DNA of 34,255 bases from the NCBI GenBank assembly GCA_028874995.1, contig JAPPGM010000185.1:1-34255 (forward strand). The letters are read 5' to 3'. This DNA comes from Gemmatimonadota bacterium (GTDB lineage Bacteria > Gemmatimonadota > Gemmatimonadetes > Longimicrobiales > Gaopeijiaceae). Below are positions 14,134 to 34,255 of this stretch, one piece after another. Both the position numbers and the translations under genes were made by a program. Every line of letters begins with the position of its first letter. Positions within the stretch are counted from its first letter, which is position 1. A model generated the notes under the pieces. That model saw nothing but the letters and a program-made list of their open reading frames with translations, searched no databases and was not told where the DNA came from.

Positions 14134-14189
14134 GCTTGCGAATCGGTAATGTGGATCGCCCAATCCTCGTTTCCGTCCCGGAGGTCAAC

Positions 14190-16799: not shown

Positions 16800-17039
16800 C
16801 GGAACCTGGCGCCTGGCACTCGGTCGGCGACACAGTCACGCCGGGTCGTCGCAAAGCGGTGCTCGGGAGTGCCCTATCCACGGCCTATTGGTCCGTCGGG
16901 CTGGGAACCCGGGAACTTCCTCCCCGTTGGCGTGTCATCCTGAAGTCGCAATCGGCTTGAGTCGTCAGGATCCCCCCGCATCTGTCCGGAAGCGATCGCG
17001 CGGACCTTGAACGCCGCCCCCCGGAAAGAGGCAGAAACG

Positions 17040-19505
17040 GTGAGCCAGGGAAGATGGGTGAGAGAGTTGCTCCAGGACGTGAAGCTGGGTTGGCAGAGGA
17101 TAGTCCGCGCACCCGGGCTCGCTACCGTGGCCGTGCTGTCGCTGGCTATCCCCATCGGCAGCAACGCCGCCCTTTTAGGCCTGCTCGACGGCTTCACTCT
17201 GCGCACGCCGCCCTATGAAGAACCGGACGAGTTGGTCGACATCCGGATTTCTCGATCCGGCCAGGATTTCAGCGCGTTTTCCCACGTGGCATTTCGCGAG
17301 TTGGAAGACGCCGCGAAGGAGGCGTTTGCGGGAATAACCGGGGCAATGACGAACAGGGTTCACGCGAGTGATGGTTCCGGATGGAATGACAGCCCCAATC
17401 ATGAACTCGTGGCCGGACCCTTCTTCCAGGTTGTCGGCATCGATGCGCAGATCGGACGAGTCTTCCATCCCGGCGAGGGCGTTGATGAGGGCGCCGACCC
17501 GGTCGTGGTGTTGAGTGACGAGTACTGGCGCCGGGAATTCGACGGAGACACCGCGGTCGCGGGCCGGGTCCTGCGGCTGAACGGGCATCCGTATACTGTC
17601 GTGGGCGTGGCAGCGCCAGGATTCCACGGCCTGTACCGGGGATTCAGATCCGCCTTCTGGGCGCATGCCTCCATGGCCGATCAGCTCTCGCTCTACGGTC
17701 CCCAAACGCTTGACTCGCGGCTGCTCGATCTGTTCTTCGTCACGGGTCGAATGGCGGAAGGAACGACATTGGCCGATGCGGAGGCTGTGGTCGCACACTT
17801 CGCCGCCGATCTCTTCGCCACCCACCCCCTCACCTACCCGGACCGCCGGATCGAGGTGGTGCCCTCCGTTGCCTCAGCCGTTCATCCGATGCTCACGGAA
17901 GTCGTCGCGCCCATCGCCAAACTGGCCTCAGGCATCCTCTCCCTCCTCCTGCTGCTCGCGTGCGTGAATCTGGCCAGCTTCCTGCTCTTCAGGGGAGAGA
18001 GGCGGCGGGCCGAGCTCGCGATCCGCCTGGCCCTCGGAACGCGCCGAAGCCGACTGGTCCGCAGTCTTCTGGCCGAAACGACCATGCTGGCCCTTCTCGC
18101 CGGTGGTCTCGGCGTGCCCCTGGCTCTCGTCGTCCTGGAAGCCATCGCCGGCATCGGAGCGCGACTTGCGGCGCCCATCGCAATCGACCCAATGCTCGAT
18201 GTGACCGTCCTCATAATCGCCCTCTCCATGTCGCTCGTTGCCAGTATCCTGATGGGGCTTGGTCCAGCGATCCAGTCGACGCGCATTCCTGTCTCTACCA
18301 TTCTCAAGGAGGAACGGGTTGGGACGGGCCGCGCCGCGATAAGCGCGCGGAACGCGCTGCTGATCGGCCAGATCGCCTTGACGGCACCGCTTGCCGCGGT
18401 TGCCGTGGGATCCTTGCGCAGCCTGGTCATTGCCCAGGGGGTGGATCCCGGGTTCGGGCAACATCCCGTTGCCATCACCCTGCTGGCCACTCCACATTCC
18501 CATTCGGAGGACCAGCGACGGGACTTTGGGGAAGAATATTTGCGTCGGGTAAGCGAAATCCCCGGGGTCACGTCGGCCGGCGCGACGACCAGTCTTCCGC
18601 TGGCGATCGGCACGTTAAGCCGGCTGCATCTCAAGATCCCCGGCGTCGATCCGCCCCCCGGGCACGACAACATCCTGATCGACTGGACCAGCGTCGCCGG
18701 CGACTACTTCGAAGTGATGGGGATTCCTCTGCTTGCCGGACGGACGTTCGACGCACGGGACGGCTCAGGTCCACTCAACTCGGTCGTTATCAGCAAGACC
18801 ATGGCGGATCGGTTCTGGTCCGGTCAGAACCCGGTCGGTCAGCAGGTCATATTGTGTGAGGGATGTTTGGCGACCGTGGCGGGGGTGGTCGGCGATACAC
18901 GGTCTCGAAGCCTCTTCGAAGCCCCCCGCCCGATGATCTACACCGCCGCTGCCCAATCGCCGTATTTCCACACCTACGTGATGGCCCGCACCACAGACGA
19001 TCCCTCCAGCGTGACCCCGGTCATGCTCGAGGTTGCCACCGAACTGGAACCCCTCGTCATCACGATCGAGACCAACACCCTGGAGCGGCACCACGCCAAA
19101 CACCTCATCCCACTGCGGATTTCGGCCACCCTCGTCGGTGCGATCAGCTTGTTCGCCCTGTTTCTGGCCGCAATCGGACTGTACGGAATCACGATCTACA
19201 CCGCGGCAGCGCGTAAGCGGGAACTGGCAATTCGCATGTTTGCCGGGGCCGATCCCTCCAGGATTGCGACCTCGTTGCAGCGTCCCACGACAAGGAAGGT
19301 CGGAGTCGGGCTGACGATCGGGCTGTTGCTGTCCGTGGCCGGCGCACGCGCGTTCAGGGACATGCCCTATGGAATCAGGCCACTCGAACCGGTCGACTTC
19401 GTCAGTTCCGCGATCCTCCTGGCAGGAGTCGGTTTCCTGGCCACCTGGCTGGCGGGGCGACGAATCCGTCGTCTGGATCCGATGGAAACATTGAGGGAAG
19501 GGTGA
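17040..19505 (+). CDS. ADOP/MacB-type ABC transporter permease
   Basis: This is an 821-residue membrane protein of the FtsX/MacB superfamily in the duplicated ADOP form. From GTG 17040 (AAAGAGG eight bases upstream) there is a short cytoplasmic lead with a WQRIVRAPGLATVAVLSLA-type first helix. A periplasmic MacB_PCD domain follows, then a block of helices around SLLLLLACVNLASFLLFRG with the coupling motif RRRAELAIRLALGTRRSRLVR. A second periplasmic domain and a second helix block with RKRELAIRMFAG come next, and a final RRIRRLDPMETLREG tail. No ATPase gene is adjacent, which is common for ADOP permeases. Such proteins are proposed exporters or envelope mechanotransmitters; the substrate is unknown. 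TTG 17007 is an alternative start. It lies between two S9 peptidase copies. Confidence 0.92.
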   Translation: MSQGRWVRELLQDVKLGWQRIVRAPGLATVAVLSLAIPIGSNAALLGLLDGFTLRTPPYEEPDELVDIRISRSGQDFSAFSHVAFRELEDAAKEAFAGITGAMTNRVHASDGSGWNDSPNHELVAGPFFQVVGIDAQIGRVFHPGEGVDEGADPVVVLSDEYWRREFDGDTAVAGRVLRLNGHPYTVVGVAAPGFHGLYRGFRSAFWAHASMADQLSLYGPQTLDSRLLDLFFVTGRMAEGTTLADAEAVVAHFAADLFATHPLTYPDRRIEVVPSVASAVHPMLTEVVAPIAKLASGILSLLLLLACVNLASFLLFRGERRRAELAIRLALGTRRSRLVRSLLAETTMLALLAGGLGVPLALVVLEAIAGIGARLAAPIAIDPMLDVTVLIIALSMSLVASILMGLGPAIQSTRIPVSTILKEERVGTGRAAISARNALLIGQIALTAPLAAVAVGSLRSLVIAQGVDPGFGQHPVAITLLATPHSHSEDQRRDFGEEYLRRVSEIPGVTSAGATTSLPLAIGTLSRLHLKIPGVDPPPGHDNILIDWTSVAGDYFEVMGIPLLAGRTFDARDGSGPLNSVVISKTMADRFWSGQNPVGQQVILCEGCLATVAGVVGDTRSRSLFEAPRPMIYTAAAQSPYFHTYVMARTTDDPSSVTPVMLEVATELEPLVITIETNTLERHHAKHLIPLRISATLVGAISLFALFLAAIGLYGITIYTAAARKRELAIRMFAGADPSRIATSLQRPTTRKVGVGLTIGLLLSVAGARAFRDMPYGIRPLEPVDFVSSAILLAGVGFLATWLAGRRIRRLDPMETLREG

Positions 19506-19619: not shown

Positions 19620-22241
19620 ATGAATCGCCGCTCCTTCCCCTTTCCTCCCACCATTGCCGCCCTGGCACTCGCCGGCGCAGCACTTCTGCCAGCTCTCGCG
19701 CTCACTTCCACCCCGGCCCTCGCCCAGGACGAGGGCACCGTCATGGTCCAGGGCCCCGGCTCAGCCAACTACGAGCTGGCCGCCCGCTTCGCCCCCTACA
19801 AGGTGAGCGACCTGGTCCACTCAACCCGCGTCTCCCCGCGCTGGATCGAGGACAGCGACCGCTTCTGGTACCAGTGGGAGAGCTCGACAGGCACAAACTA
19901 CTACCTCGTGGACGCCGCCCGCGGCACGCGCACCGAGATCTTCGACAACGACCGGATCGCGGCCGAGCTGACCCGCATCACGCGGGACCCGTGGGACGCG
20001 CAGCATCTGCCCATCCGCAACATCCGCTTCCTGAGTGCGGGCACGCTCCAGTTCGAGGTGCAGTCGTCGCAGGACGAGGAGATCGAGGAGGAGGAAGAGG
20101 AAGAAGACGAGGAAGACGAAGAGGACATCGAGGAGGAGCAGGAGGATGAACAGGAGGCTCCCAGCCGGCCCCGCACGCGCAAGAAGGTGCACTACTTCGA
20201 GTACGACGTGGCCACGCAGACGCTGCGCGAACTGGAAGACTACGAGAAGCCGATCACCCACCCCTTCTGGGCCAGCGTCTCGCCCGACACCGCCTGGGTG
20301 GTCTTCGCCCGCGAGTTCAACCTGTGGATGATGAGCTACGAGGAGTACGAGAAGATCCTCGAAGCGCGGCGCGGCAAGACGGGAGATGAGGCGGAGAAGG
20401 CGGAGGAGGACACCGAAGTCGAGGAGGTCCATCTTACCACCGACGGTGAGCGGCACTACTCGTGGGGCTTCGAGGGCCGCGGGGCGAACGACGAGGAGAC
20501 CGAGAAGGAGTTCAAGAAGCGCCAGTCCTCGGGCGTCGTGTGGTCACACGATTCCAGGTACTTCGCGCTCACCCGGTCGGACAGCCGCGAGGTCGGCGAG
20601 CTCTGGGTCGTCCACGCGGTGGGCAACAAGCGTCCCAAGCTCGAGACCTATAGGTACTCGATGCCCGGCGAGGAGCACGTCGCCCAGACCACGGTGCACG
20701 TCTTCGACATGGAATCCCGCGAGATGAAGCACATCGACGACGGTCCCTGGAAGGACCAGCGCATGGGGATCTACCGGGACACCAGCACGCCCTTCAGCTT
20801 CGACCCGTCCGAGATCAGGTTCTCGAAATGGCTCTCGGACCGGAACGAACTCTACTACTACCGCCACAGCCGCAACCTGCACCGGGCCGACGTGCTGAGG
20901 GCCGACCCCGCCACCGGCGAAGTGACCGTGGTGATCGAGGAGCGCCTGAACACCTACGTCGAAATCCTGTCTCCCTACCGCCTCGAAAACGGCGACCTCT
21001 TGTGGTGGTCCGAGCGCGACGGCTGGGCGCACCTGTACCGCTACGCTGCCGACGGCACGGTCCGCAACCGGCTGACCGAAGGGCCCTGGCACGTGAGCGG
21101 CATCAGCGGCGTCAATGAGGAGGGCGGATACGTCCTGCTGCGCGCCAACAACCGCGAGAAAGGGGAGGATCCCTACTACTCGCACCTCTACCGCGTCGGC
21201 CTGGACGGACGCGGACTCACGCTCCTCAACCCTGGAGACTACGACCACCAGGTCTCGGTGAACGACGACGCCACCTACTTCGTCGACAACTACTCGCGGG
21301 TGAACAGCGTCCCGGCCGCAGCGCTCCACGACGCCTCCGGCCGCAAGATCATGGACCTCGAGGAGGCCGACTTCTCCGCACTCATGGACGCCGGCTACGA
21401 GCACCCCGAGCCCTACACCGTCAAGGCCGGGGACGGCGTGACCGACCTGTACGGCGTCATGTACAAGCCCTACGACTTCGATCCCGCGAAGAAGTACCCG
21501 ATCGTTGCCTACGTCTATCCCGGCCCGCAGACCGAGTCGGTCAGCAAGGCGTTCTCGCTCAATCCCACCGAGCAGGCGCTCGCCCAGTTCGGCTTCATCG
21601 TGATCACGATCGGGAACCGCGGTGGCCATCCCAACCGTTCCAAGTGGTACCACAACTATGGGTACGGGAACCTCCGCGACTACGGTCTCGAGGACAAGAA
21701 GGTCGCGATCGAGCAGCTCGCCGACCGCCACGGCTTCATCGACGCCGACCGCGTCGGGATCTACGGCCACTCGGGAGGCGGCTTCATGTCCACGGCCGCC
21801 ATGCTCGTCTACCCCGACTTCTTCAAGGTCGCCGTGTCGTCCGCCGGGAATCACAACAACGACGTCTACAACAACTGGTGGTCCGAGAAGCACCACGGCG
21901 TGAAGGAGGTGAAGGACTCCACCGGCGCGGTGACCGGCTTCGAGTACTCCATCGACCGCAACTCCGACATCGCCGCCAATCTGAAGGGGCACCTGCTCCT
22001 GACGACCGGGGACATCGACAACAACGTCCACCACGCGGGGACCTTCCGCATGGCCGAGGCACTCATCCGGGCAAACAAGCGGTTCGACTTCTTCATCTTC
22101 CCCGGCCAGCGCCACGGCTTCGGGAACATGAGCGACTACTGGTTCTGGCTCAGGGCGGAGTACTTCGTGAAGCACCTGCTGGGGGACACGCAGTGGAACG
22201 TGGACATCCTGGAACTGCAGGGGGAGCGGCCGAAGGGGTAG
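19620..22241 (+). CDS. Secreted S9 family (DPP IV-like) peptidase, copy 2
   Basis: This 873-residue paralogue of the peptidase at 14190-16799 is about 80% identical by eye across most of its length. The start at 19620 has GGAGA upstream and leads into a signal peptide ending near PALAQ. The beta-propeller is again interrupted by an acidic run (residues 152-179), longer than in copy 1. The catalytic residues are Ser718 (GHSGGG), Asp800 (IDNNVHH) and His832 (GQRHGF). It follows the permease by 114 bases with a possible own promoter but no strong -35/-10. The duplication is recent enough to retain near-identical C-terminal halves but old enough for signal peptides to have diverged. Confidence 0.94.
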   Translation: MNRRSFPFPPTIAALALAGAALLPALALTSTPALAQDEGTVMVQGPGSANYELAARFAPYKVSDLVHSTRVSPRWIEDSDRFWYQWESSTGTNYYLVDAARGTRTEIFDNDRIAAELTRITRDPWDAQHLPIRNIRFLSAGTLQFEVQSSQDEEIEEEEEEEDEEDEEDIEEEQEDEQEAPSRPRTRKKVHYFEYDVATQTLRELEDYEKPITHPFWASVSPDTAWVVFAREFNLWMMSYEEYEKILEARRGKTGDEAEKAEEDTEVEEVHLTTDGERHYSWGFEGRGANDEETEKEFKKRQSSGVVWSHDSRYFALTRSDSREVGELWVVHAVGNKRPKLETYRYSMPGEEHVAQTTVHVFDMESREMKHIDDGPWKDQRMGIYRDTSTPFSFDPSEIRFSKWLSDRNELYYYRHSRNLHRADVLRADPATGEVTVVIEERLNTYVEILSPYRLENGDLLWWSERDGWAHLYRYAADGTVRNRLTEGPWHVSGISGVNEEGGYVLLRANNREKGEDPYYSHLYRVGLDGRGLTLLNPGDYDHQVSVNDDATYFVDNYSRVNSVPAAALHDASGRKIMDLEEADFSALMDAGYEHPEPYTVKAGDGVTDLYGVMYKPYDFDPAKKYPIVAYVYPGPQTESVSKAFSLNPTEQALAQFGFIVITIGNRGGHPNRSKWYHNYGYGNLRDYGLEDKKVAIEQLADRHGFIDADRVGIYGHSGGGFMSTAAMLVYPDFFKVAVSSAGNHNNDVYNNWWSEKHHGVKEVKDSTGAVTGFEYSIDRNSDIAANLKGHLLLTTGDIDNNVHHAGTFRMAEALIRANKRFDFFIFPGQRHGFGNMSDYWFWLRAEYFVKHLLGDTQWNVDILELQGERPKG

Positions 22242-22365: not shown

Positions 22366-22591
22366 GTGCGACCCCCGGAGTATGAAGGTCGCAGGCTCAC
22401 GATCCGGTGCATGGAGCGCGCAAGCGGGCGCTGCCCGGCCGGGAGGTTCCTGGACGAGCTTCCCAGGCACGAACGGGCGCGGGTGATCCTGATCTTTCGG
22501 ATGCTCGGGGATCGTGGACCTCTTCGATAGGGCAATCGCGATGAAGTCCGAATTCGATCGCCACAGGAAGGAGAACGATGGAAACCAGTGA
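22366..22591 (+). pseudogene. Broken HigB/Gp49-like toxin gene
   Basis: A GTG-started frame (22366-22530) encodes 54 residues. Its segment GRCPAGRFLDELPRHERARV resembles the N-terminal half of HigB/Gp49-type RelE-fold toxins, and it ends at TAG 22528. The +1 frame then reads LFDRAIAMKSEFDRHRKEND and stops at 22591, overlapping the antitoxin start by 14 bases. That resembles the usual Lys/Arg-rich C-terminal helix of these toxins and their usual overlap with the antitoxin gene. The core beta strands with the catalytic and mRNA-binding residues are missing. I read this as an internal deletion plus frameshift in a toxin of normally about 100-120 residues. The family call is inference from short segments. 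Confidence 0.55.
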
Positions 22592-23036
22592 AGCCTGGAT
22601 CGCACGGCAGGCCAAGGACCCGGAATTCCGGCAATTCTACGAAGAGGAGCGACTGATCCTCTGGACGACCGAAGAAATCGCAGGGGCAATGGTGGATCAG
22701 GGAATCAGCCGGGCGGACATCGCAGAGAGGATCGGAACCAGCCGTGCGAACGTCACTCAGCTTCTGAGCGGATCCCGAAACATGACTCTGCGGAGCCTGG
22801 CCCGGCTCGCACACGCCTGTGGAATGCGGGCGGTCATTCAACTCGAAAACATGGCCGACTCGGTCTTTACTCCCGCCGAAGACCACGCAACCGCGTCTCA
22901 CGTCATCCAAATGAAGTTCTCGACCGAGGAGCCGCCTCCGGAGCTGCCTTTCGCCCCCTCGGTCCTGTCTCCGGTGTCGGTCGACAACGAGAACTCCGCC
23001 GACATTCTACCCTTGCGCGACCGCCTCGCCGCCTAG
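22578..23036 (+). CDS. higA: HigA-like XRE antitoxin with C-terminal extension
   Basis: This is a 152-residue helix-turn-helix protein with AAGGAG just upstream of the ATG. Residues 1-30 are charged (RQAKDPEFRQFYEEERL). Residues 31-90 form an XRE/Cro-type HTH with ISRADIAERIGTSRANVTQL as the recognition segment. Residues 91-152 form an extension beyond the usual HigA fold, rich in Pro and hydrophobic residues and ending RDRLAA. In TAC systems such an extension (chaperone addiction domain) is bound by the SecB-like chaperone and otherwise leads to degradation. The gene order toxin remnant, HTH, SecB-like supports that reading. It probably represses its own promoter. Without a working toxin it may now be a plain autoregulator. 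The gene symbol is by analogy. Confidence 0.75.
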   Translation: METSEAWIARQAKDPEFRQFYEEERLILWTTEEIAGAMVDQGISRADIAERIGTSRANVTQLLSGSRNMTLRSLARLAHACGMRAVIQLENMADSVFTPAEDHATASHVIQMKFSTEEPPPELPFAPSVLSPVSVDNENSADILPLRDRLAA

Positions 23037-23044
23037 GACCTGTC

Positions 23045-23542
23045 ATGCCCACCAACGTCGAACGTGCCAGCGTCGTGTCGCGCCATGTCCAGATCGAGTC
23101 GGCAACGCTGATCGACACCAGGATGAAATCGACCCTTCACACCATCGATCAGCCGACAGCCTTCCGGCTCGGGAACTGGTTTCGGTGCCGCCACGAACTG
23201 AGTTCGTCCAATCCTGACCGGCTGCTCGTCCACGTGGAACTGAAGTTCGAAGCGAGCCCGGAGGGAGAGACTGATTCCGAGATTACCGTGGTCGATCTCA
23301 CCGCAACTTTCCTGGCGACCTATCGCCTGGCGGACGCGAGTTCATATCCTCAAGATGCCCTCCACCACTTCGCCGATCTGAACGGGACTCTGAACGTCTG
23401 GCCGTACTGGCGCGAACTGGTCCAGTCCTTTGCTGGCCGGGCCGGTCTGCCGGGCGTAGTGGTTCCGGTTTTCAGGCCCAGATTGAAGCAGATACCCGAA
23501 CAAGAAGAGCTCCAGATACCCGAAGAGGCCGAGAGTCGCTAG
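23045..23542 (+). CDS. SecB-like chaperone of a TAC system
   Basis: This 165-residue protein resembles SecB-like chaperones linked to toxin-antitoxin modules rather than housekeeping SecB. It has an opening strand region (VQIESATLIDTRMKSTLH), alternating beta strands (LLVHVELKFEA, ITVVDLTATFLATYRL), and the SecB signature helix region at residues 116-145: NVWPYWRELVQSFAGRAGLP followed by GVVVPVF. Housekeeping SecB has a matching F/Y-PYARE...GGFPP...LPPINF layout. The gene starts 8 bases after the antitoxin stop (AGGA upstream), so the two are cotranscribed. By analogy with the mycobacterial HigB1-HigA1-SecB-like system it should protect the antitoxin. The C-terminal tail is charged and probably disordered. 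Confidence 0.8.
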   Translation: MPTNVERASVVSRHVQIESATLIDTRMKSTLHTIDQPTAFRLGNWFRCRHELSSSNPDRLLVHVELKFEASPEGETDSEITVVDLTATFLATYRLADASSYPQDALHHFADLNGTLNVWPYWRELVQSFAGRAGLPGVVVPVFRPRLKQIPEQEELQIPEEAESR

Positions 23543-23593: not shown

Positions 23594-25129
23594 TCAACAC
23601 CCCGCCCACCCCCATCCCCGCCCACACCCCAGCGCGAATAGCGCCCCCAGATCCCGCTCCGCCACGGGACCCTTGCTGCCCCGCAGCACGATCGGCAGTT
23701 CCTCCATGGGCGGCCGATCACGCTCAAAACGGGTCCAGTCGGCCAACCCCGGGTCACCCCCCGCCAATCCCTCGAGATTCCGGCACCCCGGCGGGAACCC
23801 TCGCCGACAGGAACGCTCGAACTCCCCCGTCGCCCCCACGAAGTCCCGGTCCAGCCTCACCAGTAACACCCCGAACTCGTTGCACGCCCAACCGGACCCC
23901 AGGTCGCAGAAGTTCTGCAGCATGACCCCGCTGTAGTTGCACGCCCGCTCGGTGCCCGCCTCGCACGCGTCGCGCCAGAAGGGGTAGTACTGTCCGGGAT
24001 GATGGTCGCCGACCCCGCCCGTGAAGCTCATCGTCGCGAAAACCGTGCCCCATAGCCCCACGGTCGCGACCCGCCGCCGCGCACCTCCCCCACCCTGGAA
24101 GGTCCGCAGCAGTTCCGGCCTCTTCATCGCGATCCACTCCGCCGCCCTGTCCAGCCGCGGCGCCAGCAGGTTGAGAATCGGCACCGGCAACAGCTTGTCG
24201 TAGAAGTTCGGCGCGCCGACCGCGTCCAGCAGAAACACGCTCAGAATCACCCCGCTCCCGTACAGCAGCCCGAAGATCACCCTTCCCCCGTCGGAGCGGG
24301 GCGAGGTGGCCGGATCCGTAAAGAGCAGGTGCAGTCCCAGGAAGACCGAGATCGGGATGTAGGCGTCGTAGAAGAAGTAGATCCCCGTCGACGCATGGTA
24401 GATCAGCCCGAAGGCCAGGATGGTGAGCACCGCCGGCATGGTCATCATGGCGACGCCGAAGAGGAGCTGCGCCGGGACCGCCGCAAGGAAGATCACCAGG
24501 AACATCTGCGGCGGGACGAACTGGCTCTGCGCAATCTCGATGCCCAGCGTGATCTCGGTCTGGCCGGTCACGATCAGCGCCACCGCTGCCACGAAAAGCG
24601 CCAGCGCCGACGGGTTGAAGATGTGCCGTGAATGCCCGCCCAGCTGCCAGCGGATGAACTCCTTCCCCGCGTAGACCAGCACGATCATCGCGAACTGGAA
24701 GAAGAACCACGGGCCCGTGAACCAGAGGAAGAGGTTCACGCTGAAGATCACTGGGATCGGGCCCAGCCCGGCGGTGTAGCGCCCGCGCCGGGTCCACGCG
24801 AACAGACCCTCGAGGGCCACCGCCAGCAGCAATTGTGCCAGGATCATCGGCGCCCACGACCGCACCATCTCCACGTGCGTACCCCACCACACCAGGAGCG
24901 CCCCCTGCGCCAGCGTCTGCATCCAGTGGGGGGTGCGCAGCACAAACTCCAGGATCAGCGGCTCCCCACTCCTCCGCCGCGACGCGAAGAGCCAGCCCGT
25001 CCACACCAGGATCCCCACGACCGCCACCACGAAGCTCCAGAAGGCACTCGGCGTGGCCTGAACGGCCGGGTGCAGCTGAAAGGCCAACAGCCCGGCGGCG
25101 ATGGCACAGGGAAGGAGCAGTGGGCGCAT
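23594..25129 (-). CDS. NqrB/RnfD-like membrane protein fused to a cysteine-rich Sel1-like tail
   Basis: This is a 511-residue protein. The first 350 or so residues form about eight to ten hydrophobic helices with family-like motifs of the NqrB/RnfD group: HIFNPSALALFVAA, and LLFTDPATSPRSDGGRVIFG near residue 270. The usual flavinylation motif (S/T-G-A-T) is not seen. After a basic linker, residues of about 385-450 carry three C-x7-C units (CEAGTERAC, CDLGSGWAC, CRRGFPPGC), typical of disulfide-stabilised Sel1-like repeats of secreted Hcp proteins. The tail is therefore probably periplasmic. No other rnf/nqr genes are adjacent; the gene follows the plug-only protein by 34 bases. The role is unknown, possibly electron transfer across the membrane. 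The start at 25129 lacks a clear ribosome site, and GTG 25144 is an alternative. Confidence 0.78.
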   Translation of the reverse strand: MRPLLLPCAIAAGLLAFQLHPAVQATPSAFWSFVVAVVGILVWTGWLFASRRRSGEPLILEFVLRTPHWMQTLAQGALLVWWGTHVEMVRSWAPMILAQLLLAVALEGLFAWTRRGRYTAGLGPIPVIFSVNLFLWFTGPWFFFQFAMIVLVYAGKEFIRWQLGGHSRHIFNPSALALFVAAVALIVTGQTEITLGIEIAQSQFVPPQMFLVIFLAAVPAQLLFGVAMMTMPAVLTILAFGLIYHASTGIYFFYDAYIPISVFLGLHLLFTDPATSPRSDGGRVIFGLLYGSGVILSVFLLDAVGAPNFYDKLLPVPILNLLAPRLDRAAEWIAMKRPELLRTFQGGGGARRRVATVGLWGTVFATMSFTGGVGDHHPGQYYPFWRDACEAGTERACNYSGVMLQNFCDLGSGWACNEFGVLLVRLDRDFVGATGEFERSCRRGFPPGCRNLEGLAGGDPGLADWTRFERDRPPMEELPIVLRGSKGPVAERDLGALFALGCGRGWGWAGC

Positions 25130-25163: not shown

Positions 25164-26060
25164 TCACGCCGCTCCCGGAGTCCCGTTCGCCGACGAACCC
25201 TTGCGGCGCGGCCTGCCCGGGTGCTTGCTCTTGATCTCGACCGCGCCCAGGCGGCCACCCTCGCCGTAACGGAAGAAGGCCTGCGACGGCGACAGGATGC
25301 GGATGCTCTCGATCTCGTTCGGATCCTGGTCCAGCAGCATCCTGGCAACGTGTCCCGGCAGCGACGCTTGCGTCATCCGGGCCATCTCCGTCACCGGCGG
25401 TGGAGCGTACACGATCACTCCGTCCAGCACCAGAAGGGCCGGACGGCACCCGTCCCCCAATTCGCGCAGGTCCTGGACCGATGGCCTGCGCCGCGTCGAC
25501 TGAATGCAGAAGGTGATGCCTCCGTGCCCTCCGGACTGGCGGATTTGCAGCCTGGGAGGCGCCTTCGAACGCATCACCTCCAGCAGCTTGTTGGTGCGCC
25601 CCGCCGCCTCCGCCACCTCCTCGGGGCCGATGAACTCCGATTGCCACCCCTGCCGGCGCGCCTCCGTCTCCTCGCGCCGCGTGCCCTCCACCTGAATCCC
25701 TTCCAGCTGGATCGGCCTGGGAGTGACGCGAAGGACCCAAACGTCTCCCGCAACCAGCGGCACCGAGCTCGCAAGCTCCTCGTAGGCGACATGGAAGGTG
25801 GACACCACCTGCCTGTTGCCCGGCACAGCATCGATCCTGAAATAGCCCAGACTGTCCGTGATCGTTCCGAGGCGAAGCTCCGGGAAGTGCACCACCACGC
25901 CCTCGACCGGCAGTCCCGTGACGGCGTCCAGCACCTCGCCCTCCACTGTGGTCTGGGCCAGGGCCGGTGACCCGACCCCGAGACACAACGGCAACAGCAG
26001 CAGCAAGCGCAGCCGCCCCCCGAAGCGACTACTTCGGGGGGCGGCTCCTTTCGCGCGCAT
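25164..26060 (-). CDS. Barrel-less TonB-plug / carboxypeptidase-regulatory domain protein
   Basis: This 298-residue exported protein has a signal peptide (LRLLLLLPLCLGVGSPALAQ). A carboxypeptidase-regulatory-like beta domain follows (VEGEVLDAVTGLPVEGVVV... LGYFRIDAVP), then a TonB-receptor plug-like domain ending IESIRILSPSQAFFRYGEGG. The protein stops where a receptor's beta-barrel would start, with a basic Arg/Lys-rich tail. Two Cys (FCIQST and GDGCRP) may form a disulfide. Plug-only proteins of this kind are found near SusC/SusD genes, but their function is not established. It lies third in the SusC-SusD operon. A 15-bp hairpin begins 14 bases inside the reading frame. GTG 26102 is an alternative start. 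Confidence 0.78.
   Translation of the reverse strand: MRAKGAAPRSSRFGGRLRLLLLLPLCLGVGSPALAQTTVEGEVLDAVTGLPVEGVVVHFPELRLGTITDSLGYFRIDAVPGNRQVVSTFHVAYEELASSVPLVAGDVWVLRVTPRPIQLEGIQVEGTRREETEARRQGWQSEFIGPEEVAEAAGRTNKLLEVMRSKAPPRLQIRQSGGHGGITFCIQSTRRRPSVQDLRELGDGCRPALLVLDGVIVYAPPPVTEMARMTQASLPGHVARMLLDQDPNEIESIRILSPSQAFFRYGEGGRLGAVEIKSKHPGRPRRKGSSANGTPGAA
26011..26046 (-). other. Perfect 15-bp stem hairpin inside the start of the plug gene
   Basis: The arms 26011-26025 and 26032-26046 are perfect inverted complements (AGCCGCCCCCCGAAG), with a 6-base loop. In the mRNA the hairpin starts 14 bases after the start codon at 26060. It is GC-rich and must be very stable. There is no T-run, so it is not a simple intrinsic terminator. 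It could limit ribosome loading, protect the upstream SusC-SusD mRNA from 3' decay or mark a processing site. Confidence 0.8.
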
Positions 26061-26139
26061 CCTGCGCCTTCGTCTCTCTAGCGTTCCGCGGGGAAACCCC
26101 ACGTCCCGTCAAGAGCGTCGAGACGCCTCGGCAGGCGCG

Positions 26140-27525
26140 CTATTTGCTGAAACATCTTTCAGCCACCTGCTCGTTGACCTGGCACTCGTCGAGGGCAATC
26201 GGCATCCCGATGTTGCGCGGACCTCCCAGAATGTCGCAGGTGACGCGCCGGTCGACGGTCGCCTCGTAAACCACGCCGCCACCGTCGAGGTGGGGGTGGT
26301 CCCAACGCTGCATGTCCCAGAGGCGCCGGCCCTCCAGCCAGAGGGTCAGATGGCGCTCCCGGTCGAGGATGTCCCACCCCGACATCGAGGTCGGGTGGGC
26401 TCCCCCGTCTTCGCCGCCGGTGATCGATCCGATCGTGCCGTCGGATTCGAGGGCGTCCAGCCCATGGTGGGCCCGAGCCTCGTTGATCTTGGCCATCGCT
26501 CCCGCCAGGTCTCCGTCGTTCAACGCGGCCTCGGCCTCGATAAGGCGCATTTCGGTTCCCTTGACGAGCGGGATGTCGTCATCGCGTGTCGGGTACTTCT
26601 CCTGCCGGTAGTGGATCGTCTGGCCATCCGCCCCATTGCCGCTGGGACAGTTGCTGGCCTCGTCGGAGCAGTCCGTCCACGGCGTGCGCGGGTCACCGGC
26701 TCCATACGTTCCCGCCAGCGTCATCCAGGCCGAGATCTCATGTCGCCCGTGCGTCTCGTTCCAGATAATGCTCTCCTCCCGGCCCGAGTTCGACGAATAC
26801 GCGGCCGCGAAGACGAAGTCGGTGGGCACTCTGGCGGCATTGGCCAGCGCGTTGGCGGCGTCGCCCAACCCCACGTATACCTGTGCCAGACCTCCCGTCG
26901 CGGCGTTCACGATTTCGGTGTCGCCCGCGGCGCCGCCGTGCTGGATCGCAGCCTCCAGCAGCGGAATGGCCCGCCGGAAGGCGGCCTCCCGGTCCATCTC
27001 CACCCCGGTGTCGATTTCACCAGCGGGCCCTGGGGTTTCCTCGGTGTACGGCGCGCTGAAGACCGTCTTGCAGAAATTCTCGCCGAACCAGCGGTTGGCG
27101 AGCCCCGCGAAGAGGTACGCCCTGGCCGTCTGGACATTCCCGTCGAACTGGTACCCCTCGATCGCCTTCATCCGGAGGATACCGGCTTCGGCCACCCAGC
27201 GGGCGCGCTGCACACCGGCCCAGAAGCCGTTGGCGTCCTCGGAATCGAAGAGCCCGCGGCGGTAGCGGCCCGTGGAGAAGTAGCTTCCCGACCCCACGAT
27301 TTCATCCGACAGGATCGCCGTCGTGAAGGCCAGGTTGTCGTAGGATGCGGAGAAGTCCGAGGACATTCCCGTCACCAGCGACGCCACGCCCGCGGCCGTG
27401 TTCAGGTCGTCGTCCAGGATTCGTCCCGGGTTCTTGACGTCGAAGAGGCCCTCGTCGCAGCCGGTGACCGCGAAGGCCGCCACCAGCGCGCCGAGCATGA
27501 AGAATCGGTTCTTGATCGTTTTCAT
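26140..27525 (-). CDS. SusD/RagB-like outer-membrane lipoprotein
   Basis: This is a 461-residue lipoprotein with lipobox FAVTGC near residue 23 and the SusD-like opening CDEGLFDVKNPGRI. The body is helix-rich with TPR-like pairs, as in SusD/RagB glycan- or peptide-binding lipoproteins that cap a SusC-type receptor. Late motifs include RLIEAEAALNDGDLAGAMAK and LWLEGRRLWDMQRWDHP, the latter characteristic of the family's C-terminal region. It starts 19 bases after the SusC-like gene's stop (AGGAATC before the ATG), so the pair is cotranscribed and the proteins should form one complex. The substrate, glycan or peptide, cannot be told from sequence. Confidence 0.92.
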   Translation of the reverse strand: MKTIKNRFFMLGALVAAFAVTGCDEGLFDVKNPGRILDDDLNTAAGVASLVTGMSSDFSASYDNLAFTTAILSDEIVGSGSYFSTGRYRRGLFDSEDANGFWAGVQRARWVAEAGILRMKAIEGYQFDGNVQTARAYLFAGLANRWFGENFCKTVFSAPYTEETPGPAGEIDTGVEMDREAAFRRAIPLLEAAIQHGGAAGDTEIVNAATGGLAQVYVGLGDAANALANAARVPTDFVFAAAYSSNSGREESIIWNETHGRHEISAWMTLAGTYGAGDPRTPWTDCSDEASNCPSGNGADGQTIHYRQEKYPTRDDDIPLVKGTEMRLIEAEAALNDGDLAGAMAKINEARAHHGLDALESDGTIGSITGGEDGGAHPTSMSGWDILDRERHLTLWLEGRRLWDMQRWDHPHLDGGGVVYEATVDRRVTCDILGGPRNIGMPIALDECQVNEQVAERCFSK

Positions 27526-27544
27526 GATTCCTGTCCCCCCCGGC

Positions 27545-30500
27545 CTAGAAGTCCACCCGGGCCGACAGCACGAAGCTGCGGAACGGAGGGAGGTTGTAGT
27601 ATTCCTGCCGGAACAGGACGTCTGCGGAACCGTCCTCGAAGGCCTCGGGGTCGACGCCTTCAAAGTCGGTGAAGGTGAGCAGGTTCCTGCCCTGCAACCG
27701 CAGCGTGGCGGACCGGAAGCGACCGGGAATCCACTCCTGCGGCAGCCGGTAGCTGAGCGACACCGAGCGGAGCTTGAAGAAGTCCGCCGGCTGCGTCCAC
27801 ATGCCGTAGCGCGTCACCGACGGGTCGCAGAGCGCCCGCTCGCCGGCCGTCAGCTGGTCGCGCCGACCGTCGGAGATGGCCTGGTTGACGTCGCGGCAGG
27901 TCGGCCAGACGCTACGCCGCGCGTTCTGGTACGCGGTGCCGGATGACAGCCAGTGGCCGCCCATTCCCTCGCCGACCACGTCCAGGGTGAGGCGCTGGCC
28001 GAGCGTCAGGGTGGTGTTGACGTTGTAGTTGAGGGTCGGTGTGGTCGAACCCAGGCACTGGGTCGCGTACCGGGGTGCCGCCACCTCGTCGGGGTTCTGC
28101 ACCCGGTCGTGACAGAAGGCCGGCAGCGGGAAGTACACCAGTTCCCCGATTTCGCACCCCTGGCCGATGAAGCCGTTGCCGTCGAAGTCGGTCCCGTTCG
28201 ACAATTCCTCGGTGCACTCCATCGGTGCCTGCACGTAGTTGCGCCAGCCGACGGGAATGTTGTCGAGGACACCGAGGTCCTCCACCCTGGACATGGCGGT
28301 CGCCACGCCCCCGCCCACGTCCCAGATCAGCGCGTCGCTCGACAACAGATTGACGTTGACGAACGCCTCGTGCCCCCGGTTGCTTACCAGGCCCACGTTC
28401 TCGAACTGGCGTCCGACGAACCCGCCCGACGGAATCTGCGTGACGGGGATCAGCGCGTCCGAGGTCTTCTGATAGAAGTACTGATACTCGAAGGAGACCT
28501 TGCCGTTGAGCGTCGAACCTTCGAATCCCCCTTCGTATTCCGTGCTCCGCTCGGGACCCAGCGTCGGGTTCCCCAGGTTGTCCGGGGTCACGCCCGGCTT
28601 CCCGTTGTCGCCGGCCACCGATGCCCAGGTGCGGGCGGCGTCGAAGAGTCCGGGCGCCTTGCCCGACGACCCGAATGCGCCGCGCAGCTTGAGCAGGCCG
28701 AAGCCCTGCGGAAAGAAGCTCTCGTCGGAGACCACGTAGGCGAACGACGCCTTGGGGTAGCTCTGGAGACCGAAGTCCTGACCGAAAGCCGAGTGGCCGT
28801 CCACGCGCAGCCCGAGCGTCAGGAAGAACCTGTCCGCAACGCCGAGCACCTCTTCGAAGAAGAAGCCGCCGCTGGTGACGGTGCTGTTGACCTCGAACGC
28901 CTCCGTGATCGCGCCGGACTGGAGGACCTTCTCGCCCGGGCCCGCGAAGTCGTCGCCGAAGCCGTTGGTTCCGGTAAAGAAGTCGTTGTAGAGCTGGCCA
29001 CCGAGGGAGAATTTCGAGGACAGCCCGAAGAGCTCGCCGGTCCAGCTTCCCGCGTAGTCCAGCGTGAGCTTCCTGGCGGTCCGCTCATCCGTCTCGCGGT
29101 TGCCGAGCTGTACGTAGAAGTAACCCCATGGGCGCTCCTCGAAGTACTCGTTGCGCGTCCAGTCGATCCCCGCGTTGAGCCTGTGCTGCATTCCCTCCAG
29201 GGGAGTCCAGATCAGGTTCATCGAAGAAGTGAAGCGATCGTTGATGTTGGTGATGTCCATGTCGAGGAGCTTGCCGTCCTCGTCATTGGTGTAGTCCCTG
29301 CCGCCACGGAAGACGTTCAGGAGGAGACCCTCGGCGTTGTTGCCGTCCGGCACCCAGGTGACGTCCCTGTGGGCGTAGAAGGTGTTGAAGCGAACGTCCA
29401 GATCCTCGGCGGGGGCGAAGGCGAAGTTGCCGCGGAGGTTCCAGGTCTCCTGCCCCTGCTCGGGGCGCTTGAAGCCGTCGCTGTCGTATCCGGTGTCGAA
29501 GACGCCGGCCTGCGTGCCCCACTTGGCCGACACGAAGTAGTTCATGCGCTCGGCACCGCCCCGAACCGACAGGTTGTAGCTCTGCGTGCGGCCGGTCTTG
29601 AGCCAGGAACCGCTGGCCGGGCAGGACGGATCGGCCGGGAACTGCGAGTCGCCGCCGGAGAAATTGGCGTCGCCCGTGAAATTGCAGTTGTTCAGCCCCA
29701 GGCCGGTGGGGTTGACGTCGGGTGGCGGACCGATGTGGCCCAGGTTGTTGATTCCCTGGTCGACCGTCAGGCTCCACGCCGGGACGCCGGCGACGCCGCG
29801 CTTGGTGAAGATCTGGATCACGCCGCCCGCCGCCTCGGTGCCGTACAGGGTCGTCGCGGCGGCCCCCTTGATGACCTCGATCCGCTCGATATCGGCGGGG
29901 TTGATGTCGTCGAAGGGGTTCGTCTGCTGGTTGGCCTCGTCGGAATGGATCAGCCCGCGTTCGCGGACCCGGATGCCATCCAGGTATACCAGCGGTACGT
30001 TGCTGAACGAGACGGAATTGTTGCCTCTCAGCTTGAAGGTCGATCCCGCTCCGACCTGGCCGCCGTTGGTCAGCACCGTGCCTCCGAGCGTGCGTCCCTG
30101 CATGATGTCTGCCACCGAACTGACCGGCGCCGACTCGAACACGTCCGCGTTGATCTGGGTGACGGAGTTCCCGATCTCGCGCCGGCGCGCGGCGCCCGCG
30201 GTACCCGTGACGACCACGCCCTCCAGGCTGATCGCCTCCGAACGCATGCTGAAGTCCTGGACGACGGCGCCGTCGGCCGTGACCACGACCTCGGCGGTCA
30301 CCGTCCCGTATCCGATGAAGCGCACCTCGACGGTGTGAGTGCCGGCCGGCACGGGCTGCAGCAGATAGCGGCCGACGTTGTTGGCCTGAATCCCGATATT
30401 CAATTCCGGGATGCCGACCTGGGCACCCGCGATGGGCTGCCCGTTGATCGCGTTTCGGACCACACCCGTGATGCTCCCCGTTTGTGCGTGAGCGGGCGCC

Positions 30501-30586
30501 TGAACCGCGACAAGGATCACGACCGCCGCGATCAGCGGCCGGATGGCGGTCCGGGCGACCGCCCGGCTAACTCGTGTTGCTGACAT
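27545..30586 (-). CDS. SusC/RagA-family TonB-dependent outer-membrane receptor
   Basis: This is a 1013-residue receptor and first gene of a probable four-gene operon. The start at 30586 has a near-ideal AGGAGGGAGG ribosome site and a signal peptide ending APAHAQ. Next come a carboxypeptidase-regulatory-like domain (ITGVVRNAINGQPIAGAQVG), a plug domain (residues of about 120-260) with the SusC-type signature IERIEVIKGAAATTLYGTEA, and a 22-strand-type barrel to the C-terminus. The barrel ends in an aromatic residue (FVLSARVDF), as outer-membrane proteins do. It imports a ligand presented by the SusD-like partner using TonB energy. No TonB, ExbB or ExbD gene is present in the window. Confidence 0.95.
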   Translation of the reverse strand: MSATRVSRAVARTAIRPLIAAVVILVAVQAPAHAQTGSITGVVRNAINGQPIAGAQVGIPELNIGIQANNVGRYLLQPVPAGTHTVEVRFIGYGTVTAEVVVTADGAVVQDFSMRSEAISLEGVVVTGTAGAARRREIGNSVTQINADVFESAPVSSVADIMQGRTLGGTVLTNGGQVGAGSTFKLRGNNSVSFSNVPLVYLDGIRVRERGLIHSDEANQQTNPFDDINPADIERIEVIKGAAATTLYGTEAAGGVIQIFTKRGVAGVPAWSLTVDQGINNLGHIGPPPDVNPTGLGLNNCNFTGDANFSGGDSQFPADPSCPASGSWLKTGRTQSYNLSVRGGAERMNYFVSAKWGTQAGVFDTGYDSDGFKRPEQGQETWNLRGNFAFAPAEDLDVRFNTFYAHRDVTWVPDGNNAEGLLLNVFRGGRDYTNDEDGKLLDMDITNINDRFTSSMNLIWTPLEGMQHRLNAGIDWTRNEYFEERPWGYFYVQLGNRETDERTARKLTLDYAGSWTGELFGLSSKFSLGGQLYNDFFTGTNGFGDDFAGPGEKVLQSGAITEAFEVNSTVTSGGFFFEEVLGVADRFFLTLGLRVDGHSAFGQDFGLQSYPKASFAYVVSDESFFPQGFGLLKLRGAFGSSGKAPGLFDAARTWASVAGDNGKPGVTPDNLGNPTLGPERSTEYEGGFEGSTLNGKVSFEYQYFYQKTSDALIPVTQIPSGGFVGRQFENVGLVSNRGHEAFVNVNLLSSDALIWDVGGGVATAMSRVEDLGVLDNIPVGWRNYVQAPMECTEELSNGTDFDGNGFIGQGCEIGELVYFPLPAFCHDRVQNPDEVAAPRYATQCLGSTTPTLNYNVNTTLTLGQRLTLDVVGEGMGGHWLSSGTAYQNARRSVWPTCRDVNQAISDGRRDQLTAGERALCDPSVTRYGMWTQPADFFKLRSVSLSYRLPQEWIPGRFRSATLRLQGRNLLTFTDFEGVDPEAFEDGSADVLFRQEYYNLPPFRSFVLSARVDF

Positions 30587-30590
30587 TGTA

Positions 30591-30600
30591 CCTCCCTCCT
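30591..30600 (-). promoter_or_regulatory. Strong ribosome binding site of the SusC-like gene
   Basis: AGGAGGGAGG precedes ATG 30586 with four intervening bases (TACA). It is the strongest Shine-Dalgarno match in the window. It decides the start over the in-frame position 30673 and implies high translation of the receptor. Confidence 0.8.
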
Positions 30601-30759
30601 GGAGTGTTGACGTAGAGCAGGGCCGCGAGCCATTCGCGACCCCAGGAGCCCGTGGAAGAAACCCCCACGGCATTCGACCGGCGATGCATCCGGGCTCCTA
30701 CTGTATACAATTCCGTATGTAACGCCCCGCCGCAAGGGGGGGGCGATCCTCGTTGCCAG

Positions 30760-31323
30760 TTACCATTTGAATGGGAGCGCGAACCGCACCATGGGCGCGA
30801 ACTGGTCGGTCTGGTCCTCGTCGGGGTTCGGTCCGGTGTTGGCGTCACCCTCGAACCCCAGGTACGCAAGCGTGGCCACGACAGCCACCATCCCAGCCGA
30901 CAGCAGGATGCTGCGCCCGTGGCTGGCCTCTTTGCGCTCCAGCAGGAGGATCGAACCGAGGGGCAGGTCGACTTGGCGGTGCGAAGTCGGTGTGGTCAGG
31001 AGAAAGGTGGCCGAGTCACCTGCCAGGTTGACGAAGCGGGCGCTGACGAGCCCCTCGTTCCCGGATACGAAGGCGACGTTCCTCGCGAGTTCCTCCGGCG
31101 CGAGGCGCATTCGCACCCGCTGCTGCGGCGGGAGGTCCTCGATCCGGGTCTCGCGATAGGTCGCGCAACCGGTGCCGAGGGCGAGGAGGGCGGGAAGCGC
31201 GAACGGCAGCCCGCGGATGGATCCGCCCAGGCGCCATATGCGGTGAAGCGCCGGGCTGGCGGCCGCGGGCCGGCGGCGGTGCGGTGAGTGATTGTGTCTC
31301 GTCCCCATCTTCGTCCTGATCAT
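30760..31323 (-). CDS. Predicted lipoprotein with C-terminal membrane segment, unknown function
   Basis: This is a 187-residue protein I do not recognise. A basic n-region of about 40 residues precedes a hydrophobic core and the lipobox LALGTGC (Cys53). A beta-rich soluble part of about 75 residues follows, including SARFVNLAGDSATFLL and VDLPLGSILLLERK. Near the C-terminus a hydrophobic stretch (ILLSAGMVAVVATLAYLG) could be a membrane helix, then the chain ends FALPFKW. The start at 31323 has AAGGA nine bases upstream; ATG 31308 is possible. The gene lies 173 bases before the SusC-like gene on the same strand and is divergent from the metallo-hydrolase gene. A TTGACA-type promoter precedes it. 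It may be an envelope protein associated with the transport operon, but that is only positional. Confidence 0.66.
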   Translation of the reverse strand: MIRTKMGTRHNHSPHRRRPAAASPALHRIWRLGGSIRGLPFALPALLALGTGCATYRETRIEDLPPQQRVRMRLAPEELARNVAFVSGNEGLVSARFVNLAGDSATFLLTTPTSHRQVDLPLGSILLLERKEASHGRSILLSAGMVAVVATLAYLGFEGDANTGPNPDEDQTDQFAPMVRFALPFKW

Positions 31324-32727: not shown

Positions 32728-33762
32728 ATGACGAGGTTCCCGACAGGACAACTCTCCAAGAATATTCGCGGTGGCGCCTCAGCCGCCGTTCTGGCAGCCC
32801 TGACCGCGGCCTGCGGCGGCTCCGAGCCGGGCCTGGCGCGGGGCAAGATGCTCTTCGACACCTGCTCGCCGTGCCACGGCGACGACGGCGCCGGCAAGCA
32901 GTCGCTGGGGGCGCCGGCAATCGCGGGGGGGTCCGAGTGGTACCTTTCGGCCCAGCTCCTGAAGTTCCGGGGGGGCGCGCGGGGGTATCACCACACTGAT
33001 ACCGAAGGGCTGCGGATGCGCCCCATGTCGCGCGCGCTCGTCGACGACTCGGGCGACATCGAGTCGATCGTGGAGTACGTGGTCAGCCTGCCGATTCCGG
33101 ACCCGCCGCCGACCGCCGAGGGGGGCGATGTCGAGGCCGGCGAGACGACGTACATGGAGGCCTGCGTGAGCTGTCACGGCAGGGATGGCCGTGGGGTCGA
33201 CCAGGGCGTACCCGAGTTGAATCCCCCCTCGTTGCTGCATCTCAACGACTGGTACATCGAGTCGTCGCTCCGGAAGTACCGGGACGGCGTGCGGGGGGTC
33301 GGCGACGCGGCCGGTGACAACATGCGCACCTACGCCGAGGGATTGACCGACGAGGAGATCTTCGACGTCACCGCATACATCATGACGATGCAGCGGCTGC
33401 CCCGAAAGATTCCCGCCCCACCCCTCCCGCCCCTGCCCCCGGTCGACGTGGATCCCGCCATCCTCCCCGAGGGCGTGACCGTGGAGATGGTCCAGGAGGG
33501 TCAGGACATCTTCAACACTACAGTGGGCATCTGCTTCACCTGCCACCTGCGGGAGGGTGTGGGCGGACCCCTCGCGCCACCCCTCACCGACGACGAGTGG
33601 CTGAACATCGACGGCGAGTACGAATCCATCATCGAAATCATCACCAACGGGGTGCCGGCACCGGTGGAGTATCCCGGGCAGATGGCACCCCGCGCCAACC
33701 GGCCCCTCACCGACGAGCAGGTGCGCGCCGTCGCCGCCTACGTTTTCACCCTGAGCCGCTGA
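32728..33762 (+). CDS. Triheme c-type cytochrome lipoprotein
   Basis: This is a 344-residue periplasmic electron-transfer protein. The signal peptide ends in lipobox LTAAC, so it is lipid-anchored. Three haem-binding motifs are visible: CSPCH at residues 46-50, CVSCH at 146-150 and CFTCH at 269-273. Each lies in a class I cytochrome c-like domain of about 90-100 residues. The first two resemble the tandem domains of cytochrome c4-type dihaem proteins (CHGDDGAG, CHGRDGRG). The third follows a proline-rich linker (PAPPLPPLPPVDV). Probable distal Met residues occur in RMRPMSRAL and PGQMAPR. It is the first gene of a cluster with a small membrane protein and cytochrome oxidase subunit II, and probably feeds electrons to that oxidase. 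Confidence 0.92.
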   Translation: MTRFPTGQLSKNIRGGASAAVLAALTAACGGSEPGLARGKMLFDTCSPCHGDDGAGKQSLGAPAIAGGSEWYLSAQLLKFRGGARGYHHTDTEGLRMRPMSRALVDDSGDIESIVEYVVSLPIPDPPPTAEGGDVEAGETTYMEACVSCHGRDGRGVDQGVPELNPPSLLHLNDWYIESSLRKYRDGVRGVGDAAGDNMRTYAEGLTDEEIFDVTAYIMTMQRLPRKIPAPPLPPLPPVDVDPAILPEGVTVEMVQEGQDIFNTTVGICFTCHLREGVGGPLAPPLTDDEWLNIDGEYESIIEIITNGVPAPVEYPGQMAPRANRPLTDEQVRAVAAYVFTLSR

Positions 33763-33767
33763 CGACC

Positions 33768-33950
33768 ATGGCAGCCAACCCGACCACCGACCGCCCCACA
33801 CACGCGGAGCTCGCCGCCGAGATCCCCCCCGCGGCCCCGGACGAGACCAACGAGGCGGTCATCTTCGCGAAGAAGACGCTGCGCTGGACGTTCTGGCTGG
33901 CCATCGGCTTCATCGGCGCGGCGGTGGTCTACACCCACATCATGCAATGA
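33768..33950 (+). CDS. Small single-helix membrane protein in an oxidase cluster
   Basis: This 60-residue protein has a charged, proline-rich N-terminal half (AELAAEIPPAAPDETNEAVI) and one transmembrane helix near the C-terminus (FWLAIGFIGAAVVYTHIM). It starts 5 bases after the cytochrome stop and ends 20 bases before the subunit II start, so it is certainly in the operon. I do not recognise a family. Size and position fit a small accessory or assembly subunit of a cytochrome oxidase (like CcoQ- or CtaF-type small subunits), but that is inference. Confidence 0.72.
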   Translation: MAANPTTDRPTHAELAAEIPPAAPDETNEAVIFAKKTLRWTFWLAIGFIGAAVVYTHIMQ

Positions 33951-33970
33951 GCGAAAGGGATTCTCGGTAG

Positions 33971-34255
33971 ATGGGCTTCTTCGAGAGCTGGGGTCACTTC
34001 TTCGACAGGATCGGGCTGATCCGGATCGGGTCCACCTACGCGGCGGACATCGACTTCCTGATCTTCCTGGTGCTCGTTGTGGTGGGCGTCTGGTTCCTCG
34101 CCGCCGAGCTAATCTTCGTCTACTTCATCATGAAGTTCAGGGAGAAGGGGGACGGGCGGCGGGCCGACTACATCGACGGGAAGAACAAGCGCCACAAGAG
34201 GTGGATCACCTACCCGCACCTGGCGGTGCTGGCCTTCGACGTCCTGATCATCGTG
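33971..34255 (+). CDS. coxB: Cytochrome c oxidase subunit II, N-terminal part (runs off the window)
   Basis: The first 95 residues are present; the gene continues beyond the right edge. It starts with MGFFESWGHFFDRIGLIRIG, then a first transmembrane helix (FLIFLVLVVVGVWFLAAELI) and a charged loop (KFREKGDGRRADYIDGKNKR). The start of a second helix (HLAVLAFDVLIIV) reaches the edge. Two N-terminal helices joined by a short charged loop are the layout of haem-copper oxidase subunit II before its periplasmic CuA domain. The CuA ligands would lie outside the window, so copper binding cannot be checked. The upstream triheme cytochrome supports the call. Confidence 0.75.
   Translation, partial: MGFFESWGHFFDRIGLIRIGSTYAADIDFLIFLVLVVVGVWFLAAELIFVYFIMKFREKGDGRRADYIDGKNKRHKRWITYPHLAVLAFDVLIIV

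Follow-up and report, generated by a model that had tools for sequence, protein, structure and literature searches.

The window analysed here is a stretch of 34,255 nucleotides from a Gemmatimonadota bacterium (GCA_028874995.1, contig JAPPGM010000185.1). An operon on its minus strand runs from a small lipoprotein-like protein through a SusC-like receptor, a SusD/RagB-family protein and a CarboxypepD_reg and plug-like protein without a barrel (CPR) to the gene under study, which comes last (Table 1). This gene is a genuine open frame, and its 511-residue product (P0001) combines an NqrB/RnfD-fold membrane domain with a cysteine-rich, Hcp-like Sel1 tail. The lipoprotein-like protein has no Pfam match and is conserved within the genus, and the SusC-like receptor was assigned from its sequence, its position beside SusD and its conservation as a neighbour. 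CPR, also a conserved neighbour, matches PF13715 (2e-8) and PF13620 (1e-7), with its plug-like part assigned by eye. A promoter and terminator scan of the operon returned nothing helpful beyond chance, and the genes upstream of the operon vary even within the genus.

Table 1 Features of the operon and of P0001 (positions are those of the window)
Feature	Residues of P0001	Position	Strand	Basis
CDS, NqrB/RnfD-fold membrane domain and Hcp-like Sel1 tail	511 aa	23594..25129	-	
Extra N-terminal helical hairpin ahead of RnfD-like core	5-54	24968..25117	-	AF2
NqrB/RnfD-fold core	48-342	24104..24988	-	VIA-align, hhalign
Signature loop 1, GKEFIRW..HIFNPS	155-174	24608..24667	-	Common to RnfD as GK-x(n)-FNP[AS]
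Signature loop 2, TDPATSP	271-277	24299..24319	-	Conservation, profile comparison
Last transmembrane helix, RRR-flanked on cytoplasmic side	352-370	24020..24076	-	
Predicted periplasmic Sel1/Hcp-like tail	371-511 (141 residues)	23597..24019	-	
Cys pair 1, C389-x7-C397	389, 397	23939..23965	-	44/44; helix end/helix start (AF2)
Cys pair 2, C408-x7-C416	408, 416	23882..23908	-	44/44
Cys pair 3, C441-x7-C449	441, 449	23783..23809	-	44/44
Cys pair 4, C502-x8-C511	502, 511	23597..23626	-	44/44
CarboxypepD_reg and plug-like protein without barrel (CPR), immediately upstream		25164..26102	-	
SusD/RagB-family protein, same operon		26140..27663	-	PF07980, 9e-10
SusC-like TonB-dependent receptor, same operon		27545..30673	-	Sequence, position by SusD, conserved neighbour
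Small lipoprotein-like protein, operon head		30760..31323	-	Conserved within genus

Family distribution and selective constraint

Relatives of P0001 share 45-97% identity, and the gene is under purifying selection, with a dN/dS of 0.11 against the related locus L001 and 0.13 against L002; core and tail taken separately each give values of 0.07-0.14 in the same comparisons. Conservation and dN/dS together rule out a spurious frame at positions 23594-25129. A family profile built from 16 members and run on 395 sampled Gemmatimonadota genomes matched 77 of them, four weakly (~20 bits), leaving about 73 clear matches, and the carriers are mostly uncultured Gemmatimonadota. Within the window's own genus the profile found the family in 19 of the 23 sampled genomes. 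For phyla outside Gemmatimonadota the coverage is solely that of an exact-peptide scan of GTDB contigs; such a scan can pick up no more than close relatives, and its 21 loci were all from Gemmatimonadota. The family protein had no match in PHROGs and none among plasmids (tblastn).

Seven relatives in the genus (L007, L009, L011, L012, L013, L014 and L016) carry a tandem second family copy with a full cysteine-rich tail (e.g. L012:9448-11061); the window holds one copy. At a further locus (L058, G116:C7:49364-50497) a family copy is broken by one in-frame TGA and is probably a pseudogene, and the same genome has two further family copies without stops.

The NqrB/RnfD-fold core

The full-length AlphaFold2 (AF2) model of P0001 has moderate confidence values (mean pLDDT 76, pTM 0.68). 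Structural alignment with VIA-align placed RnfD or NqrB in all of the 13 best rows (Z 15.1-17.2; 247-271 residues aligned over model residues 48-342, rmsd 3.7-4.6), followed by Rh/AmtB (Z about 11) and urea transporters (about 8.5). Foldseek also returned NqrB as its top row for the full-length model, at an E-value of only 0.21. The hairpin that precedes the core is modelled as helices 5-25 and 27-54, and RnfD entries align only from residue 63.

At the sequence level, P0001 itself matches PF03116 (NQR2_RnfD_RnfE) weakly (14.6 bits, E 0.022, curated cut-off 27.7), as it does the NCBIfam model rnfD (TIGR01946). Its relatives score better (E 1e-4), and several sister members pass the PF03116 cut-off (35.8 bits for G389:C115), each hit coinciding in position with the family match. 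In profile comparison (hhalign), 227 columns of the family aligned with short RnfD-like Gemmatimonadota proteins (E 6e-8), and 60 columns around TDxxTSP aligned with canonical RnfD (E 1e-5). With the Pfam scores of P0001 itself weak or absent, the assignment of both domains rests on relatives, profiles and fold comparison, and the model confirms that residues 48-342 are predicted to take the NqrB/RnfD fold. An earlier note, made from the DNA sequence alone, had proposed an NqrB/RnfD-like membrane domain, a proposal borne out by the model, and both motifs that it cited, FNPSALALF and TDPATSP, are present in P0001.

The FNPS and TDPxTSP cores are near-invariant across the family. A set of 26 invariant polar residues lies within residues 1-370 and includes H68, N132, K156, H169, N172, D255, D272 and K312; H267 is largely conserved. 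These invariant residues and the retained signature loops speak for a site in the core that still functions, and against an inert anchor.

Loss of the flavin attachment site and of partner subunits

The expected FMN attachment loop, D..[ST].A[ST], was found in 17 of 29 RnfD/NqrB sequences from the phylum, most others keeping ATPL at that place. Not one of the 44 family members has a flavinylation motif (D..[ST].AT) between the signature loops, which are 100-101 residues apart in the family versus 145-164 in RnfD/NqrB. The window genome (97% complete) has no match to PF03116, PF02508 (Rnf-Nqr), PF04205 or PF02424, and no recognisable Rnf/Nqr partner, FMN-binding domain (FMN_bind) or ApbE. ApbE is present in 223 of the 395 phylum genomes and absent from all 23 sampled genomes of the genus. 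The earlier note had seen no flavinylation motif and no other Rnf/Nqr subunit nearby; the motif proved absent from all 44 relatives, and Pfam profiles found no such subunit in the window or genome-wide. P0001 likewise has neither a PF00175 NAD-binding domain nor a PepSY_TM Pfam match of the ferrisiderophore/copper reductase kind, its fold being that of RnfD, and family loci show no consistently adjacent redox partner (FMN-bind, cytochrome or Fe-S protein). As far as sequence tells, the lack of motif, ApbE and partners excludes covalent flavinylation, and the joint loss of FMN loop, partners and ApbE argues that the core is no longer part of a pump.

The cysteine-rich Sel1/Hcp-like arm

An RRR-rich loop precedes the mostly uncharged helix 352-370, which leads into the tail. 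Clade 1, to which the SusCD-linked members belong, usually has three or four K/R before this helix and none or one after it, and a sister clade (clade 2, see below) has the same trend, less strong; the loop charges of the window protein agree. From this K/R distribution the tail is predicted to be periplasmic. Folded alone, it gave a better-defined AF2 model (pLDDT 82, pTM 0.80), for which the first two Foldseek rows were HcpB and HcpC of H. pylori (probability 0.90-0.92, E 0.2-0.4). Structural alignment with SLR/TPR proteins gave Z 6-7.5, which is modest for a helical repeat, and the family profile matches HcpC (1ouv) at E 3e-7. Pfam Sel1 has no match in P0001 and matches one relative below the cut-off (2e-4).

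All eight arm cysteines are invariant in 44 of 44 relatives, far beyond chance. In the tail model each pair bridges two successive helices, from the end of the first to the beginning of the second. The repeats are irregular, with spacings between first cysteines of 19, 33 and 61 residues and no regular tandem repeats of 36-38 residues, and the arm contains no CxxC. The reading of a cysteine-rich Sel1/Hcp-like tail given in the earlier note agrees with the HcpC profile match, the tail model and its HcpB/HcpC fold matches, and its three C-x7-C units are all found, together with a fourth, C-x8-C pair that it had not listed. Its placing of the arm in the periplasm is also supported by the predicted topology, and the cysteines are neither predicted to be cytoplasmic nor poorly conserved.

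Genomic context in two clades

Almost every genus member whose contig extends far enough keeps the operon order; L018 is an exception. Outside the genus, pairing with SusC and/or SusD was found at L017, L020, L056, L066, L117 and L119, where the family gene precedes SusCD at some loci and follows it at others. As only seven SusD genes occur in the window genome, chance adjacency should amount to about 1% per locus by our estimate. No SusCD neighbour was found at L018, L019, L057, L059, L060, L068, L069, L114, L116, L118, L120 or L121.

Clade 2 is a sister clade (support 1.0) of 11 members (L061-L065, L067, L070, L071, L112, L113 and L115) with the same architecture and all eight cysteines. In each of its 11 loci the family gene is directly followed by a gene for a membrane-anchored FGE/SUMF1-fold protein (PF03781, 1e-40), and these partners conserve a CxxC before DMSGNVWEW. 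Compared at the positions that we take to be those of the FGE active-site cysteines, all 11 lack the expected residues, and a true FGE (sulfatase-activating) role is unlikely. The earlier note had suggested a stand-alone module, a reading not supported by the conserved operon with SusC/SusD and the plug-like protein or by the FGE-fold partner of the sister clade.

Comparison with known systems

With the NqrB/RnfD subunits of Na+-NQR and Rnf (PF03116) the family shares the fold of residues 48-342 and the GK-x(n)-FNP[AS] and TDxxTSP loops. It differs in having no flavinylated Thr, about 45-60 fewer residues between the loops and no other subunit in the genome, and in adding an N-terminal hairpin, a C-terminal helix and the Sel1 arm. 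UnbU, a membrane protein of enediyne clusters, is RnfD-like and is not known to have partners. By profile, the closest sequence relatives of the family are short RnfD-like Gemmatimonadota proteins (about 270-300 residues), which likewise have no flavinylation motif but differ in having no Sel1 arm. In L054 one of these (L054:5129-5968) overlaps an ApbE-like gene (5961-6908), possibly as a separate flavin-linked system.

A precedent is given by the Nqr/Rnf-like complexes, which contain an NqrB/RnfD-like subunit that has no flavinylation Thr and has an apparent non-covalent flavin site (PMC10979944). The two-subunit Nqr/Rnf-like systems (PMC8238504, PMC10979944) resemble the family in having such a membrane subunit, but come with a PF00175 NAD domain in the cytosol and with a partner of the FMN-bind kind, neither of which was found for P0001 or in its genome. 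The arm recalls the Sel1-like repeat proteins HcpB and HcpC of Helicobacter, in which disulfides tether successive repeats (PMC3851747) and cysteine pairs lie between successive helices. Hcp proteins are free, secreted and regular in their repeats, whereas the family arm is short, irregular and membrane-tethered. In CrtA/CrpH a TonB-dependent importer and an inner-membrane PepSY_TM protein share one operon (PMC13038864, PMC12914433), and here too an outer-membrane importer is encoded with an inner-membrane redox-type protein; the membrane fold there is unrelated (PepSY_TM, heme), and the operon partner of the family is SusC/SusD. Both parts of P0001 are known folds. We found no description in the open-access literature of RnfD/NqrB combined with Sel1 or with SusC/TonB, or of this architecture in Gemmatimonadota, nor of the loss of flavinylation or the exchange of SusCD for an FGE-fold partner.

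Proposed role and alternatives

Reuse of the fold, loss of the flavin site and of partners, gain of the arm and the nutrient-uptake companion together make it probable that the protein is a membrane module repurposed for redox or docking tasks. We tentatively favour, at somewhat less than even confidence, a repurposed, NqrB/RnfD-derived inner-membrane module whose redox chemistry, with a non-covalent cofactor, is directed at a periplasmic partner or at imported cargo. The arm would lie in the periplasm, its cysteines paired, as in Hcp proteins, in structural disulfides that hold helix ends together, and would provide a docking surface for the periplasmic partner encoded in the operon; an arm that is conserved while partners are operon-specific fits such a surface. 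The core may still bind flavin or quinone non-covalently and pass electrons between the membrane pool and either the periplasmic partner or the SusCD-imported cargo. The logic would be that of the PepSY_TM reductases that serve TonB-dependent importers, an analogy and not homology; electron transfer is probably the way in which partner or cargo is served. Points against the redox-module reading are the absence of a consistently adjacent redox partner, the members without SusCD, the moderate quality of the full-length model and the E-value of 0.21 that NqrB receives from Foldseek by itself.

The alternatives differ in how much of the RnfD heritage they take to be in use. A non-redox scaffold, in which the RnfD fold is a mere membrane anchor and the arm an adaptor that reaches across the periplasm to organise either SusCD and the plug-like protein or the FGE-fold partner, would suit a genome without redox partner, ApbE or FMN-binding domain, and conserved operon partners that are binding or receptor proteins. 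It would also suit the most distinctive gain, since SLR proteins have a superhelical, TPR-related fold that binds ligands in its groove (PMC3851747). We nevertheless regard it as unlikely; an inert anchor would hardly account for the two signature loops and the 26 invariant polar residues, kept down to about 45% identity. Slightly less likely still is an inner-membrane channel or transporter, built on a fold that NqrB/RnfD, AmtB/Rh and urea transporters have in common, that passes SusCD-imported substrate into the cytoplasm. That the next structural matches are Rh/AmtB and urea transporters (Z about 8-11), that the operon is shared with an outer-membrane importer, that H169 is invariant and that H267 is largely conserved speak for this reading; RnfD/NqrB nevertheless outscore these matches by about 5 Z units, both loops typical of RnfD persist, and the sister clade retains the core yet pairs with an FGE-fold protein and not with SusCD.

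A third kind of explanation would make the arm cysteines catalytic, the disulfides relaying electrons from the membrane core to partners in the periplasm, somewhat as in COA7, a Sel1 protein with disulfide-reductase activity (PMC10769979). The eight invariant cysteines and the conserved CxxC of the clade 2 partner are consistent with such a thiol-redox relay, but the C-x7-C spacing and the placing of the cysteines at the end of one helix and the start of the next are those of the Hcp structural staples, the arm has no CxxC and no thioredoxin-fold partner was seen, so we consider the relay improbable. As to an ordinary Rnf/Nqr subunit or an ApbE-flavinylated Nqr/Rnf-like protein, the fold and the weak PF03116 and TIGR01946 matches would agree with it; it is contradicted by the missing partner subunits, ApbE and flavinylation motif and by the deleted loop, and we rejected it as exceedingly improbable.

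NqrB/RnfD proteins are known mainly as subunits of ion-pumping complexes that carry covalent flavin. A family that retains their core, has shed the flavin attachment and every partner, and has gained a docking arm in the periplasm and a fixed operon with an outer-membrane importer would show the fold put to a different use in the envelope. It would also allow a direct approach to the question whether an inner-membrane partner is dedicated to SusCD uptake in Gemmatimonadota. The more far-reaching reading is doubtful, namely that of a new envelope system in which a pump-free NqrB/RnfD core with a non-covalent cofactor is docked through its arm to SusCD or an FGE-fold protein and coupled to the membrane electron pool; if true, it would tie import or periplasmic processing to that pool, in a system so far seen in Gemmatimonadota.

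Other genes in the window

Near the operon, on the opposite strand, positions 32728-34255 hold a c-type cytochrome gene together with the beginning of a cytochrome c oxidase subunit II gene. A link between these genes and the operon was set aside, since what lies upstream differs even among genus members. On the other side of the family gene, positions 22578-23542 encode an XRE-type helix-turn-helix protein and, after it, a SecB-like protein. The relative L001 has a further RelE/HigB-like gene beside this pair (L001:10538-10915). This points to a toxin-antitoxin-chaperone module, of which the window may lack the toxin. Two DPP-IV-like peptidase paralogues (14136-16799 and 19620-22241) flank an ABC-permease-like protein (17007-19505).
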